Source: Actinomycetota bacterium
GTDB lineage: Bacteria; Actinomycetota; CADDZG01; WHSQ01
Assembly: GCA_009379915.1 (NCBI GenBank)
Contig: WHSV01000015.1
Span: forward strand, 1-51,327
Length of the DNA stretch: 51,327 bases
Reading direction: 5' to 3'
Position 1 is the first letter of the stretch, and every line of letters starts with the position of its first letter. Under the pieces are notes generated by a model. That model searched no databases. It had not been told where the DNA came from and worked only from the letters and a program-made list of their open reading frames with translations. This document shows positions 18,386 to 51,326 of this stretch, piece after piece. The position numbers and the translations under genes are program-made.

Positions 18386-18497
18386 GTCAAGACCGAAAAC
18401 CTTGCATCGACGGGGAGAGTGGGTGCCTGGGCACGTTGGGTGCGCCCGCTTCGGTCGAAGTCAAGGTAAAACCAGCATCGAAGGGGGAAAGCTGGTG
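18386..18497 (-). repeat. two tandem copies of the dispersed intergenic repeat
   Basis: Read on the minus strand, two cores occur 71 bases apart. One is CCTTCGATGCTGGTTTT, followed by CTTGACTTCGACC. The other is CCGTCGATGCAAGGTTTT, followed by TCTTGACC. A GAAGCGGGCG element lies between them. The 18452-18497 copy matches the copy at 20593-20638 at 38 of 46 positions by hand alignment. The array starts two bases after the rng stop and runs into the transposase remnant. Confidence 0.7.
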
Positions 18498-18499
18498 CG

Positions 18500-19078
18500 T
18501 GCTCGGCAGACTGTCCTCGCCGGCCGCGCGCACGACCTTCTGGATGGCGGATCGCAACAGCTCGTAGGTGTCTTTGACCGCGCCGGCGCCGAGTACGGGA
18601 GAAGAGTCGATGAGAGCCAAGACCTTCTTTGGAAACAGGCCCCTGTCGACCGCCTTGGCGACCGTATCCCTGAACAGGGCCTGGTCGGCGTCGTGCAGGA
18701 CGACGCGCGCCCGGAACAACGAGAACGTCGTCGCCCCGATGCCGGGGTGATCGAAGTCGAAGCCGAGCGCGGCCTTCCAGTCGAGATCGACGCGGCTGCG
18801 CCTGGCCGACTCGCGGTCCGAAGTGTCGTCCTTGGTGGCCAGCAGCAGGGCCCGCATCATCACCGACGGCGGGATCGACGGCCGCCGCGGGCAGGCGCGT
18901 ACATCTGGGCGAAGTCGTCATCGGTGATGAGCTCATGGCCGCAGCGCGCGAGCTTCTCGTAGAACGAACCCTTGGTGACGAGGTGTCCGCACATGTTTCC
19001 GGCTTCAAGGAGGCTGCCTTGAGGATCAACGCGTCCGAGCATCGTGTCCTCCGGGAGTGGAAGTCTCGTTGTTGTCAT
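18500..19078 (-). pseudogene. truncated, frameshifted transposase remnant (IS1182-like)
   Basis: Only about the first 190 residues of a transposase survive. The N-terminal part starts at 19078 (LGRVDPQGSLLEAGNMCGHL) and breaks near 18890. The continuation is in another frame (VMMRALLLATKDDTSDRESA, then DWKAALGFDFDHPG and DSSPVLGAGAVKDTYELLRS). The family assignment to IS1182-like transposases with a DUF772-type N-terminus is from recognition, not a search. The catalytic C-terminal half is absent, and after AAGEDSL the frame runs into the repeat copies. No terminal inverted repeats were found. It is a decayed insertion sequence. Confidence 0.75.
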
Positions 19079-20396: not shown

Positions 20397-20732
20397 ATGG
20401 CGTCCTTCCTCGTGAGTGCCACGTGCTCATACCCCATCATGCGCTTTTCTAGGACGAAGTCTCCGGTTCTTAGTTAACGATGTCAACGAATGCGAGGGAC
20501 GATATAGCGGTTCGACCATCGGCGACGCCCAGCATCGTTTTTCGTCGAACGTGCCGCGATGAGCCGGAGCGGCCCTCGCAGACCGGCCATGGCACCAACC
20601 TCCCCCTTTCGATGCCGGTCTTCGCTTGACTTCGACCGCAGCACCCCATTGTGTCAAGTCGTATCTTTCTCGCAGGATATTGCAGGGTGGACGGTCACGG
20701 TGACCGGATGCGACGAGGAACGGAGACCCTCA
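20397..20732. other. intergenic region with one dispersed repeat
   Basis: No gene is seen in these 336 bases between divergently oriented genes. The region holds the repeat copy at 20593-20638. It also has a CTTGAC/GTCAAG inverted pair (20625-20630 and 20653-20658), and a TATCTT at 20662-20667 that could be a -10 for the membrane-protein gene downstream. I see nothing else. Confidence 0.5.
20593..20638 (+). repeat. dispersed intergenic repeat, single copy
   Basis: The core TTTCGATGCCGGTCTT is followed by CTTGACTTCGACC. By hand alignment it matches the minus-strand copy at 18452-18497 at 38 of 46 positions. A degenerate GAGCGG...GGCCAT segment upstream fits the left half of the longer unit seen at 49080-49140. 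Confidence 0.7.
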
Positions 20733-44554: not shown

Positions 44555-45478
44555 GTGACGCCAGACAGTCACGTCATCGAAGCCGCCGGCGGAGTGGTTT
44601 GGCGGACCAAGGGGAACGAGTATCCGAACGACGTCGAGGTCGCGATCGTCCACCGACCCCAATACGACGACTGGAGCATCCCCAAGGGCAAGTGCGCGCG
44701 CGGCGAACCACTGGTCGAATGCGCCATACGAGAGGTCTTCGAGGAGACCGGCTATCGGGTCCGCATGGGTCGCTTCCTGGGCGAGGCGCACTACATGAAG
44801 GTCTCGGCGGGTGAGGAGCGTCCGAAGGTCGTCTACTACTGGGCGCTGCGCGCGGACGGTGGTTTGTTCACTCCCACGCAGGAGGTCGATGGTCTGCGGT
44901 GGCTAGCCATCGACGACGCCCGCGCGATGCTCACCCGTGCGACGGACAAGGAGATCCTCGGCCGCTTCGCCGAGGGCCCGATCTTCACCTCCACGGTGCT
45001 GCTCGTTCGCCATGCGAGCGCAGGGAGCCGCTCGGATTGGGAGGAAGACGACCGGCTGCGGCCACTCGATTCGAAGGGTTGGGAACAGGCCGAGCAGTTG
45101 GTGCGCCTCCTGTCGCGCTTCGGCGTCGGCAGGATCATCTCGGCCGATTTCGTGCGCTGCATCCAGACGGTCGAGCCCCTGAGCGAGGCGATCGGCGTTC
45201 CGATCGAGGAGGAGCCCCTGACGAGTGAGCTCGGCTACCCCGGTAACGAGGCGACGGCGCTTGATTTCTTTCGCTCGGTGGGTACCCCCGAGGGTGCCGT
45301 GGTCATCTCGAGCCAGGGGGGCGTCGTCCCGGATCTGCTCGAGCGGCTTGCGAAAGAGGACGACTACGACTTACCGCAGGACATAGAGGCCAAGAAGGGC
45401 AGTACCTGGTCTCTCAGCTTCGAAGGCCCCCGTCTGGTGGCGGCGGAATACTTTCCCCCGCCGGAAGTCGGTCCCTGA
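44555..45478 (+). CDS. Nudix hydrolase-histidine phosphatase fusion (MutT1-like)
   Basis: The N-terminal half is a Nudix hydrolase with a perfect box (Gly45 to Tyr67: G-x5-E-x7-REVFEETGY). The C-terminal half is a histidine-phosphatase domain beginning VRHASAG with catalytic His153, SixA-like in the RHA form. The same fusion occurs in mycobacterial MutT1, which sanitises 8-oxo-GTP and hydrolyses diadenosine polyphosphates. Length is 307 residues. It follows CYTH-CHAD by seven bases, making a ppk1-CHAD-Nudix operon. The true substrate could equally be a polyphosphate-linked nucleotide. Confidence 0.85.
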   Translation: MTPDSHVIEAAGGVVWRTKGNEYPNDVEVAIVHRPQYDDWSIPKGKCARGEPLVECAIREVFEETGYRVRMGRFLGEAHYMKVSAGEERPKVVYYWALRADGGLFTPTQEVDGLRWLAIDDARAMLTRATDKEILGRFAEGPIFTSTVLLVRHASAGSRSDWEEDDRLRPLDSKGWEQAEQLVRLLSRFGVGRIISADFVRCIQTVEPLSEAIGVPIEEEPLTSELGYPGNEATALDFFRSVGTPEGAVVISSQGGVVPDLLERLAKEDDYDLPQDIEAKKGSTWSLSFEGPRLVAAEYFPPPEVGP

Positions 45479-45510
45479 GGGCCGCCCCGCGGTTCGCTCA
45501 GATGGGTACC

Positions 45511-45545
45511 GCCGGAACAAACCGGGCATCGAAGGGGGGATGGGT
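45511..45545 (-). repeat. dispersed intergenic repeat, minus-strand copy
   Basis: Read on the minus strand: CCCCCCTTCGATGCCCGGTTT, i.e. the family core with one extra C. It lies 30 bases after the MutT1-like stop. Confidence 0.6.
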
Positions 45546-45620
45546 CGGGCCTTCTCACACGTCTTGGCCCTGAGTCCCGCCAATCGGTTGCGAAAGCCAG
45601 AAGGTGCGTGATTACCACCG

Positions 45621-45679
45621 GAAGCGGGCGGTTCGAACCGCCACATCCCACGAACCTCCCTTCGACGCTGGTTTTTTGG
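45621..45679 (+). repeat. dispersed intergenic repeat, plus-strand copy with palindrome
   Basis: The left element GAAGCGGGCGGTTC (45621 on) and the core CCCTTCGACGCTGGTTTTTT (to about 45676) are laid out as in the copy at 49080-49140. The left element contains a perfect 16-base palindrome, GGCGGTTCGAACCGCC at 45627-45642. Confidence 0.6.
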
Positions 45680-45787
45680 TTTTCCCCGCTCCGTTTCGGC
45701 TTCAGCCTCCCTCTGATTGGCCGATGAACCTGTTGCAAGAGTTGCTATCCGTTTCTTTCTGTCCCGTTTCGGGTTGACTAGAGGGCT

Positions 45788-46390
45788 GTGAAGCGTCTTG
45801 GCGTCATGGGAGGCACATTTGATCCCCCTCACCAGGGGCATCTCCTCGCGGCATCCGAGGTCCTGCACCACCTGGACCTCGAGCGCGTCATGTTCGTTCC
45901 CGCCGGCGACCCGTGGCAGAAGCACACGGTCGCCCCGGCCGAGGACCGTTTTCTCATGACGGTTCTGGCGACGGAGTCACATGCTCGCTTCGAGGTCTCG
46001 CGCGTCGAGATCGACCGGAGCGGCCCCACCTACACCGCCGACACCATGGAGACCCTCCACGACTTCTACGGCGGAGAGGTCGAGCTCACCTTCATTGCCG
46101 GGGCAGACACGGTTATCGGCATGGGCACGTGGGAGAAGCTCGATCGTCTGTCGCAGCTCGCGGAGGTGGCCGCGGTCTCGCGGGCGCGGATCGATCTCGC
46201 CGACATCGATCCCGGACCCGGGTGGCCGAAGATCCACGTGGTCGAGATGCCGGAGGTGGCGATTTCGTCGACCGAGATCCGCGAGCGCGTGCGCAAGAGC
46301 CTGCCCATCGCTTACCTCGTACCGCCAGCCGTCGCGGCCTACATAGCCGAGCACGGGCTCTATCAGGGCGAGAGGAACTCCGATGGCTGA
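45788..46390 (+). CDS. nadD: nicotinate-nucleotide adenylyltransferase
   Basis: NadD adenylylates nicotinate mononucleotide in NAD synthesis. The nucleotidyltransferase motif GGTFDPPHQGHL is near the N-terminus and the ISSTEIRERVR motif near the C-terminus. The length of 200 residues is normal. The start is GTG 45788. Its end overlaps the LytR-like gene by eight bases; nadD-lytR-rsfS is a common actinobacterial order. Confidence 0.94.
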   Translation: MKRLGVMGGTFDPPHQGHLLAASEVLHHLDLERVMFVPAGDPWQKHTVAPAEDRFLMTVLATESHARFEVSRVEIDRSGPTYTADTMETLHDFYGGEVELTFIAGADTVIGMGTWEKLDRLSQLAEVAAVSRARIDLADIDPGPGWPKIHVVEMPEVAISSTEIRERVRKSLPIAYLVPPAVAAYIAEHGLYQGERNSDG

Positions 46391-47711: not shown

Positions 47712-48105
47712 GGCCCCCGAGCATCTCGAGGCCGCCGTCGCAGCGGCCGCCGACAAGAAGGCCGAGCGCATCGTCGTCCTGGACGTCTCCCAGACCCTGG
47801 CAATCACCGACCACTTCCTGATCTGCAGCGCAAACTCCGAGCGTCAAGTCCATACCATCGCCGACAACGTCGAGCGTCGCCTGCGCGAGGAATGGGACGT
47901 CAAGCCACTGCGTCGTGAGGGCCACAGGGAGTCCCGGTGGGTGATTCTCGATTACGTGGACTTCCTCGTGCACGTGTTCCACCACGAGGAGCGCGACTAC
48001 TACGACCTCGAGCGCCTATGGGCGGACGCTCCGGTGCTCGAGTTGCACCACAGAGAGGATGGATCAGACAGCGATGAGCCAGCAGCCACGGCGGAGGCGC
48101 CGTAG
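47683..48105 (+). CDS. rsfS: ribosomal silencing factor RsfS
   Basis: RsfS binds uL14 and blocks 30S-50S joining in starvation. Family features are IVVLDVSQTLAITDHFLICSA, the RLREEWDVKPLRREGHRES region and WVILDYVDFLVHVFHHEERDYYDLERLW. TTG 47683 is chosen with GGAAGGA six bases upstream, giving 140 residues; it overlaps the preceding gene by 29 bases. TTG 47668 is a less likely start. A short acidic tail follows the domain. Confidence 0.92.
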   Translation: MTQLKQKATEAPEHLEAAVAAAADKKAERIVVLDVSQTLAITDHFLICSANSERQVHTIADNVERRLREEWDVKPLRREGHRESRWVILDYVDFLVHVFHHEERDYYDLERLWADAPVLELHHREDGSDSDEPAATAEAP

Positions 48106-48658
48106 AAGGCGAGGCCGGGGCGGACAGGGCAAGAGGCCCCAGCAACAGCAAGAGCCCGCTTCGCACTCGCGGCGCGATTCCTCACAGCAGCAACCGAAAG
48201 CGGAAGGCAGTTCTCGGCGGCGGCGCCGCAGAGGGCGCGGCCGATCGCGCGGCGGCGGCGAGCGCTCGGCTACTCCCGCGAAGTCATCGGAGGAGATCGT
48301 CCGTGCGCCCAACCGCAAGAGGCCGGACACCCTCATGCTGCCGCCGGATGACCGCAAGCTCGAGGACATAATCGGCTCGCTTCAGTCCGAGATGGGCGTC
48401 CCGCAGAATCCTCAGGAGTACCGATTGACCGTCAAGGTCGCCGAGGAGCGGGACGGCAACCATCGCACCAAGTCGTCCGAGAAGAACGGAAACGGAGAGA
48501 CGAACGGCAAGCCCAAGCGCGAGAAGGCGCCGGCACCGCCGCGCGTGGGGGGAGAGGGGCCCACCGCAGACCGTGAGCCGGCCCCGTCCCGAAAACGACG
48601 GTCCCGTCGCCGCAGGCGAGGGGGCCGGAGAGGTGGAGGTGAGGGGTCGAAGGCCTGA
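48059..48658 (+). CDS. Arg-rich low-complexity basic protein
   Basis: The function is unknown. The 199 residues have three arginine blocks: RRRRRRRRGRGG near residue 11, RRRRRRGRGRSRGGG near 53, and RKRRSRRRRRGGRRGGG at the C-terminus. They are separated by a Gln-rich stretch and a more ordered centre (LMLPPDDRKLEDIIGSLQSEMGVP, split by charged residues). RGG/RRG blocks suggest RNA or ribosome binding. It overlaps rsfS by 47 bases and may be coupled to it; an ATG at 48074 is an alternative start. The central segment makes a real gene plausible despite low complexity. Confidence 0.6.
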   Translation: MDQTAMSQQPRRRRRRRRGRGGQGKRPQQQQEPASHSRRDSSQQQPKAEGSSRRRRRRGRGRSRGGGERSATPAKSSEEIVRAPNRKRPDTLMLPPDDRKLEDIIGSLQSEMGVPQNPQEYRLTVKVAEERDGNHRTKSSEKNGNGETNGKPKREKAPAPPRVGGEGPTADREPAPSRKRRSRRRRRGGRRGGGEGSKA

Positions 48659-49287
48659 CGCGCGGGGCCGACGGGCTTATCTTCACTCCTGGACCCGCAG
48701 GTATCGCCCCATGCACCCCTATTGGTCCAAGAGTTGCAAGCCTCGGCTTTTCGTGACCACCGGATGTCGCATGGAGCACTATCCAGGGTCGCAAAAAAAC
48801 TCGACCCCTGCCCCAGTGCCTCGAGAGCGGGCAGCACCCCCGAACAGACTCAGATTCGCCCCTTCGATGCTCGGTTGGTTTCGCCCGCACTAGAGCCGGC
48901 AAGAGCGGCAGCGCCCGCCGACGTAGACACTCAAAAAATGCCAAGGAATCCGGTTGCGGGCTCTGGTGAAGGGCGATCAGGGCACGTTTGTGGCCTCACG
49001 ACCGCCTGGCGGGACTGAGACCAAAGAGGTGGCCCAACAACGAGTCTCAGGGAGGACTTCGGCCCCCGGGATCCGCCAGAAGCGGGCAGTTCCGGCCATC
49101 CATCCCCCAACTCACCGCTCCCCTTCGGTGCCGGTTTTGATCTTGACTCAAAGCTAGTGCCCCGAGAGCGGGCAGCGTTCGCCGACACAGTCAGCAAGTC
49201 CCGCTCCTAAGAGCCGGTTTGGTTCTTGCTCCATACGAAACCCCTCAATTGCGACACCGAATGCCTGTGCCCTTTTAAGGTGACCGG
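48659..49287. other. 629-base gene-free region with a repeat cluster
   Basis: No credible gene is seen. Most of the region from about 48730 to 49235 is built from degenerate copies of the dispersed repeat. AAGGTGA at 49275-49281 is the ribosome site of the ABC transporter gene. No clear promoter is seen. Confidence 0.5.
48815..49232 (+). repeat. cluster of dispersed-repeat copies
   Basis: At least three copies in the same orientation: cores CCCCTTCGATGCTCGGTT (48861 region), CCCCTTCGGTGCCGGTTTT (49121 region, followed by TCTTGACTC) and a more diverged GAGCCGGTTTGGTTCTTG (49211 region). A 21-base element starting AGTGCC and containing GAGAGCGGGCAGC occurs at 48815-48835 and 49156-49176 with one mismatch. 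A related AGAGCGGCAGCG lies near 48902. Spacing between the last two cores is about 83 bases. Confidence 0.65.
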
Positions 49288-50211
49288 ATGGCCGAGAGCA
49301 AGATCGTCGTCGAGAGGCTCCGCAAGAACTTCGGGTCGACCCTTGCGGTCGATGACCTGAACTTCGCGGTCCGGGCCGGCTCCGTGACCGGCTTCCTCGG
49401 CCCCAACGGAGCGGGAAAGACGACCACGCTGAGGATTCTGCTCGGGCTGGTCTCGGCGACGGCGGGTCGAGCGACCATCGACGGCCAGGACTACAGAACT
49501 CTCGATCACCCCACTCGCAAGGTCGGAGCCGTGCTCGAGGGAGCGAACTTCCACCCCGGTCGAAGCGCTCGTAACCATCTCAGAGTCGTCGCGAGCGCGG
49601 GCCGGCTCGACCGCAACCGCATTGGTGAGTTGTTGGAGTTGGTCGGACTCACGGCCTTCGCGGACAAGCGGGTGGGCGGTTACTCGCTCGGAATGAGGCA
49701 GCGGCTCGGCATCGCTGCCTCCTTGCTCGGAGATCCCGAGGTGCTGATCCTGGACGAGCCTGCGAACGGACTCGACCCGGAGGGGATCCGCTGGCTGCGA
49801 AAGTTCCTGCGCTCTCTCGCCGCCGAGGGCCGGACGGTGCTCGTGTCGAGCCATGTCCTCTCCGAGATGTCGCAGACCGTCGACGACGTGATCGTCATCG
49901 GAAGGGGCAGGCTCATCGCGCATGCGCCGCTCGAGGAGCTAACCGGCAGCTCGACCGGTGCCGTCCGGGTCCGTACGCCAGATGCAGATCGACTCGAAGC
50001 CTTGTTGTGGGCTGTGGGAAAGACGCCACAACGAATCGACCCCCAACTACTGCTCGTAACCGATGCGACAAGCGCGGAGATCGGAGAATTGTCGGCGCGC
50101 GAGAACATCGTGTTACACGAGCTCGTGAGTGAGGCTCTCAGTCTCGAGGACGTCTTCCTCCAGATGACTGCTTCTGCCGAACTTGCCCCGCACGGTCCGG
50201 AGGCTTCCTGA
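49288..50211 (+). CDS. ABC transporter ATP-binding protein
   Basis: The ATPase of an ABC-2-type exporter. Walker A is GPNGAGKTT, the signature is YSLGMRQRLGIA (a LSGGQ variant), Walker B is VLILDEPANGLDPEG, and the H-loop is VLVSSHVLSEM. It ends with a ~90-residue C-terminal extension typical of drug or bacitracin-type transport ATPases. The length is 307 residues. AAGGTGA precedes ATG 49288 by six bases. Its stop overlaps the permease start (TGATG). The cargo is unknown. Confidence 0.93.
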   Translation: MAESKIVVERLRKNFGSTLAVDDLNFAVRAGSVTGFLGPNGAGKTTTLRILLGLVSATAGRATIDGQDYRTLDHPTRKVGAVLEGANFHPGRSARNHLRVVASAGRLDRNRIGELLELVGLTAFADKRVGGYSLGMRQRLGIAASLLGDPEVLILDEPANGLDPEGIRWLRKFLRSLAAEGRTVLVSSHVLSEMSQTVDDVIVIGRGRLIAHAPLEELTGSSTGAVRVRTPDADRLEALLWAVGKTPQRIDPQLLLVTDATSAEIGELSARENIVLHELVSEALSLEDVFLQMTASAELAPHGPEAS

Positions 50212-51253: not shown

Positions 51254-51326
51254 GGGCCCGTAGCTCACTTGGTAGAGTGCCGCCATGGCATGGCGGAGGT
51301 AACCGGTTCGATCCCGGTCGGGTCCA
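51254..51326 (+). tRNA. tRNA-Ala (anticodon GGC)
   Basis: A 73-base cloverleaf folds fully by hand. The acceptor stem is 7 bp and includes the G3-U70 wobble, the alanine identity element. The D arm is AGCTC...GAGT, the anticodon stem CCGCC/GGCGG closes loop ATGGCAT with anticodon GGC, and the T arm is ACCGG-TTCGATC-CCGGT. The discriminator is A at 51326. The window ends one base later, so it cannot be told whether CCA is encoded. Confidence 0.95.

Follow-up and report, generated by a model that had tools for sequence, protein, structure and literature searches.

The gap at positions 48659–49287 of the window, by which we mean the whole analyzed stretch of 51,327 nucleotides, consists of two worn repeat elements, one A-type and one B-type, which belong to one repeat family and are fused to each other. 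We consider it likely that both are decayed representatives of a lineage-specific family of interspersed elements which are small, modular, and non-coding. A comparison of the gap, to which as a whole no strand is assigned, with its own genome (3.39 Mb in 158 contigs, 95% complete) yielded 19 matches including the gap itself. The 18 other places match separate parts of the gap, namely gap positions 21–147 (A), gap positions 322–376 (B), and in addition longer stretches. Related copies are therefore present elsewhere in the genome, as the initial annotation had supposed, and the odd gap is explained as part of a genome-wide repeat family.

The gap of 629 bases is bounded by the stop codon of the open reading frame 48059–48658 (plus strand), whose arginine-rich product is matched by neither Pfam nor NCBIfam, and by the start at 49288 of an ABC transporter ATPase gene (49288–50211, plus strand), whose nearest named relatives are found in Acidimicrobiaceae MAGs (57–60% identity). 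The claim that this is the longest gene-free stretch of the window (64% G+C) is plausible: longer gaps of 938, 882, and 1234 bases are listed by our gene caller, a crude one which also missed the open reading frame 48059–48658, and each of them contains most of one open reading frame of 310–442 amino acids with a good codon score. Inside the gap one open reading frame (48722–49018) was tested; it has no Pfam match and a coding role was dropped.

Two stretches of 21 bases (48815–48835 and 49156–49176) form a direct repeat with a single mismatch. This repeat, already noticed in the initial annotation, is real, since the best pair of 21-mers in each of 200 dinucleotide-preserving shuffles of the gap had at least four mismatches. 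The 14-base motif CGAGAGCGGGCAGC in the center of the repeat is, however, not enriched in the window (four matches with up to two mismatches vs. 2.29 expected). The window alone can therefore not reveal the nature of the repeat.

The A core (48679–48805, plus strand) begins 20 bases after the stop codon of the upstream open reading frame and contains two imperfect hairpins with conserved loops, the copies in the window being AGGTATCGCCCCATGCACCCC and ATGTCGCATG. With the arm profile no left arm of the A element was detected in the gap. Its right arm is a clear arm unit at 48815–48892 on the minus strand with the core GCATCGAAGGGG, and this unit includes the first of the two 21-base copies. The B core (48968–49036, minus strand) contains an imperfect palindrome of about 55 bp at 48980–49034 and is followed by the clear arm unit of the B element (49063–49147, minus strand; core AAAACCGGCACCGAAGGGG at 49120–49138). 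The other 21-base copy (minus strand) corresponds by its position to the tail block of a worn arm unit at 49150–49245. We scored these units with a profile built from 50 arm units outside the window and with 300 shuffles for each unit. The two clear units reached 17.5 bits (48815–48892) and 25.3 bits (49063–49147), in both cases above all 300 shuffles. The supposed third unit at 49150–49245 reached 2.3 bits, a score attained by 1 of its 300 shuffles, and thus is without profile support, and a supposed fourth unit at 48893–48975 gave no match to the arm profile. Of the several same-direction copies initially proposed for the gap, two minus-strand units could accordingly be confirmed and two could not.

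The arm is repeated many times in the genome. A 17-base arm-core pattern with up to three mismatches gave 119 matches compared to 12 when the pattern was read backwards, and a 19-base arm pattern gave 116 (65 + 51) compared to 1 + 1 in the reversed control, while a spaced pattern of 47 bases was too strict and matched neither in this genome nor in 23 others. The arm unit is about 78 bp long. A profile built from 54 matches was run on 58 pieces of the genome (203 kb) and returned 139 rows at E ≤ 10 and 110 at 11 bits or more; these pieces, the window excepted, were chosen because they hold matches, so that the counts are no census. At this score of at least 11 bits the arm units form 53 clusters. 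Their orientation is one-sided: 17 neighboring units are both on the plus strand and 13 both on the minus strand, and among the 27 opposed adjacent pairs 26 point inward (+−) and only one outward (−+). Neighbors of the same direction are spaced 70–92 bases apart with the exception of four spacings of 47, 52, 162, and 239 bases, the last one being that of the gap studied here. Up to three arm units are found on each side of cores of the types A, B, F, and G, and some clusters are without an arm or without a core.

The cores fall into a small number of types. Single-link blastn placed 45 of the 53 cluster centers in four groups of 19, 13, 7, and 6, which correspond to B, F, A, and G. The largest of these is loose, and the core profiles find on the same pieces 14 B, 13 F, and 6 G cores and, including fragments, 12 A cores, of which seven in the genome are full-length. 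Our list of 57 clusters includes arm-only and core-only ones and omits lone arm matches below 20 bits. At one locus (L122:700–890) a gene remnant, which from its residues we take to be isoaspartyl-peptidase-like, ends where a partial A core begins.

In a plain alignment of the F hairpin the covariation was lower than in shuffles and we therefore carried out a flip test. In 3 of the 10 copies compared (of 13 F cores) the first hairpin of the core is inverted while its surroundings stay in place; these are the copies at L112:797–930, L093:1652–1785, and L107:1078–1210, compared with seven others. All 21 cross-group pairs aligned better by more than two points when flipped, in contrast to none of the 24 within-group pairs, with two ties. 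This points to an inversion of the hairpin in the DNA itself, within a single set of copies which may go back to one event. One could go further and suppose an undescribed class of DNA elements in which exchangeable hairpin cores between shared, tandemly growing, inward-pointing arms are moved or rearranged via extruded single-stranded hairpin DNA by an enzyme other than a RAYT. In that case the flip of the F core would be a trace left by the processing of hairpins. We regard such a mechanism as rather unlikely.

Homology between copies extends over whole elements. Among the matches listed, the closest G pair is 83% identical over 477 bp, the closest F pairs 78% over 386 bp and 77% over 392 bp, and the closest A pair 79% over 206 bp; other pairs are looser, many at 60–75%. 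These pairs align through both arms and lie at different loci (the copies of the second F pair are 4 kb apart on one contig), which argues for a spread of arm–core–arm and not of a lone unit. We also compared 85 arm units of at least 20 bits with each other. Units of the same direction within one cluster have an identity of 0.668 (26 pairs), units taken from clusters with a different core 0.561 (2996 pairs), and units from other clusters with the same core a slightly higher 0.600 (515 pairs). The greater similarity within a cluster fits tandem duplication inside the arms. Opposite arms of one cluster, by contrast, are with 0.557 (32 pairs) no better than unrelated arms. The proposal that complementarity is maintained between left and right arms therefore failed, and this result speaks against a single selected stem built from both arms. 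It also speaks against the MITE-like reading, since the arms differ in this from terminal inverted repeats whose similarity is maintained. We read by eye the ends of homology of four pairs and recognized neither a common terminus nor a duplication; even between the closest copies the identity is no higher than 77–83%. Shared arms with exchangeable cores offer a natural test of recombination among small non-coding elements.

Taken by their build these sequences would be old non-autonomous MITE/BOX-like elements, probably small non-coding mobile DNA. A full element comprises tandem arm units, one hairpin core, and inverted arm units on the other side. Elements would have spread as units, transposed in trans in a MITE-like manner. 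The number of arms would then have been altered by tandem duplication, and copies would have persisted mainly just behind gene ends because there they do least harm. Among the copies and the relatives' loci compared we saw no transposition event, no target-site duplication, and no empty site. An autonomous partner was not identified in a search of the genome for PF01797, the Y1 transposase of the REP type (RAYT): there was no match, with the proviso that the assembly may lack 5% of the genome. The same search, the only one for a transposase family that was run genome-wide, found PF01797 in 5 of 14 named genomes used as control. REPs borne by a RAYT were rejected on this ground.

Among the other genomes searched the family was not found. 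The A model, used with stricter filters, gave no match in 60 other genomes, and a 32-base pattern of the B core none in 395 other genomes of the phylum; in its own genome the latter has 7 matches, about half of the 14 B copies found by profile. The comparison set contains 24 genomes of the same class, none of which is another member of the genus. In 15 genomes of the same family the arm pattern gave 2–11 matches each (control 0–4), altogether 86 compared to 15 in the reversed control. This is far below the number in the genome studied here, yet it exceeds the control, and we conclude that the background of the arm pattern lies above that control. We also looked at the relatives' loci. The rsfS gene had no match in 3 of 16 family genomes, and in all 12 relatives' loci examined it occurs together with a relative of the arginine-rich gene. 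At these loci blastn gave no match to the gap, and the flanks examined did not include the ABC gene, so that there is no clean empty site. An origin from a phage or plasmid was rejected on grounds of similarity: phage and plasmid collections gave no blastn match at E 1e-5, and a 20-base A-loop pattern was not matched exactly in viral contigs.

Could the gap instead be an RNA? The initial annotation had offered a structured transcript as one explanation. As a whole the gap is no more stably folded than shuffled sequence (z 0.04; 11 of 20 shuffles reach the same stability), and a transcript structured over its full length is not supported. Local hairpins in the A and B cores are, on the other hand, plausible from folding predictions: six of the seven full-length A copies were folded singly and gave z scores of −2.23 (the copy in the window), −3.13, −3.68, −2.66, −1.74, and 0.36. 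For the B hairpin of the window the value was −2.18. One could take the A core for a structured non-coding RNA which is restricted to this lineage and only incidentally repeated, with its two loops CCAUGC and GCAUGG able to pair. The loops are strongly conserved in seven copies, and the named pairs form in 82.1% of the cells of the A alignment compared to 30–46% when slid by 1–3 columns. The covariation is, however, not above that of shuffles (310 of 500 were at least as high for the cells paired), RNAalifold draws another fold than the named pairs, one of the six copies folded has a positive z score, and neither the other genomes searched with the A model nor Rfam at gathering score provided a match. 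Moreover A is located within the same arms as other, unlike cores, and we judge this explanation very improbable. The sole Rfam match at gathering score in the whole window is a tRNA gene at its end (51254–51326). Hardly credible is the idea, likewise raised initially, that the gap is a local array which seeded the other copies. It does hold two clear units of the same direction. Yet with the full profile these are a middling and a weak member of the family, ranking 39th (49063–49147, 36.7 bits) and 86th (48815–48892, 21.7 bits) of the 139 rows, the best having 64.9 bits; both lay in the sequence searched and one of them also in the profile itself. They stem from two different elements which are fused, and other clusters hold more units, for example 3 + 2 on contig C8.

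More serious, while still unlikely in our view, is the explanation that these are domesticated 3′-end elements, i.e., that selection keeps the clusters as bidirectional structured transcript ends or as stabilizers of mRNA. Such a role has been hypothesized for REPs and suggested for SPRITE. The elements are indeed mostly found just behind genes. The median distance from a cluster to the facing gene end is 28 bases for 3′ ends (n = 55) and 115 bases for 5′ ends (n = 51; p 0.007), and when overlaps of more than 20 bases (2 and 9) are dropped the medians are 28 (n = 53) and 141.5 (n = 42; p 4e-6). The gene calls behind this test are crude, and the gap studied here entered it with a wrong left distance because of the missed open reading frame. 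The 14 of 49 clusters that lie between convergent genes (both neighbors called) and the folding of the cores, with five of the six A copies at z ≤ −1.74 in addition to the B hairpin, also favor selected 3′ ends. Of the remaining clusters 23 lie between tandem genes, whereas 12 lie, according to the same crude calls, between divergent genes. The arms keep no mutual complementarity, and a simple scan found no site resembling an intrinsic terminator in the gap or in 45440–45800, the two regions scanned, with shuffles also averaging less than one such site. Avoidance of promoters would yield the same positions without any function. We prefer the interpretation as small mobile elements, for which a present function is probably absent or incidental; any role in 3′-end stability or partial termination would be secondary.

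The literature searched contains no description of this repeat family, while the broad kind to which it belongs is a fairly ordinary one. Nearest in build are the BOX repeats. According to PMC3049150 these are composite modular intergenic repeats of Streptococcus pneumoniae and S. suis with one module in variable tandem number; in S. suis there are two sets of end modules, boxAC and boxEF, and both enclose boxB modules of one kind. They are clustered, inserted into one another, and restricted to lineages, and the authors read them as parasitic, non-autonomous mobile elements. As in BOX, distinct modules form a composite here and one of them varies in tandem number. Unlike in BOX, the variable module stands on both sides and points inward, and it is the hairpin core in the middle that can be exchanged. 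The likeness is one of build, and no terminal repeats or target duplications are shown here. With REPINs, i.e., REPs with a RAYT (PMC3116915), the family has in common many extragenic copies and inverted pairs around a spacer, as seen in the inward-pointing pairs. It differs in the unit of about 78 bp, which often is in tandem, in opposite arms which judged by their identity are not kept complementary, and in the lack of a detected Y1 transposase; a RAYT and arms that pair with each other are the defining traits of REPINs. With MITEs (PMC10969869) it shares the small size, the intergenic position, the many copies, and palindromic parts, and the elements are short, dispersed, homologous copies without a coding gene; neither a defined terminal inverted repeat nor a target duplication nor a parent transposon was identified for them. 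By build the family is thus closest to BOX and partly REPIN-like, and we file it under small non-autonomous interspersed elements, as neither REPIN nor BOX. It would be a further case of BOX-like modularity, here in a G+C-rich bacterium without detectable REP transposase.

The window contains three further clusters. Two tandem arm units on the plus strand (18388–18527) follow the stop codon of an RNase E/G gene (18383) and run into a fragment of an IS1182-type transposase, which at 18387–18863 corresponds to profile positions 57–169 of 488. An F core hairpin with one inverted arm unit is found at 20511–20639 (no strand assigned). We considered these two clusters as the two ends of one transposon and dropped the idea, as MoCF-type and DivIVA-type genes lie between them; these genes stand beside the fragment of the IS1182-type transposase. 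The third cluster (45504–45683, no strand assigned) is composed of a plus-strand arm, a B core, and a minus-strand arm. It lies between a NUDIX/His-phosphatase gene and a cytidylyltransferase-like gene, presumably nadD.

Repeats of this kind may break an assembly and conceal further copies, and where such clusters are encountered, annotating them as genes, arrays, or RNAs would be a mistake. In this genome clusters are located at or near the ends of the contigs C16, C17, C26, C80, and C85, and the ends of C16 and C26 have 111 identical bases in common.
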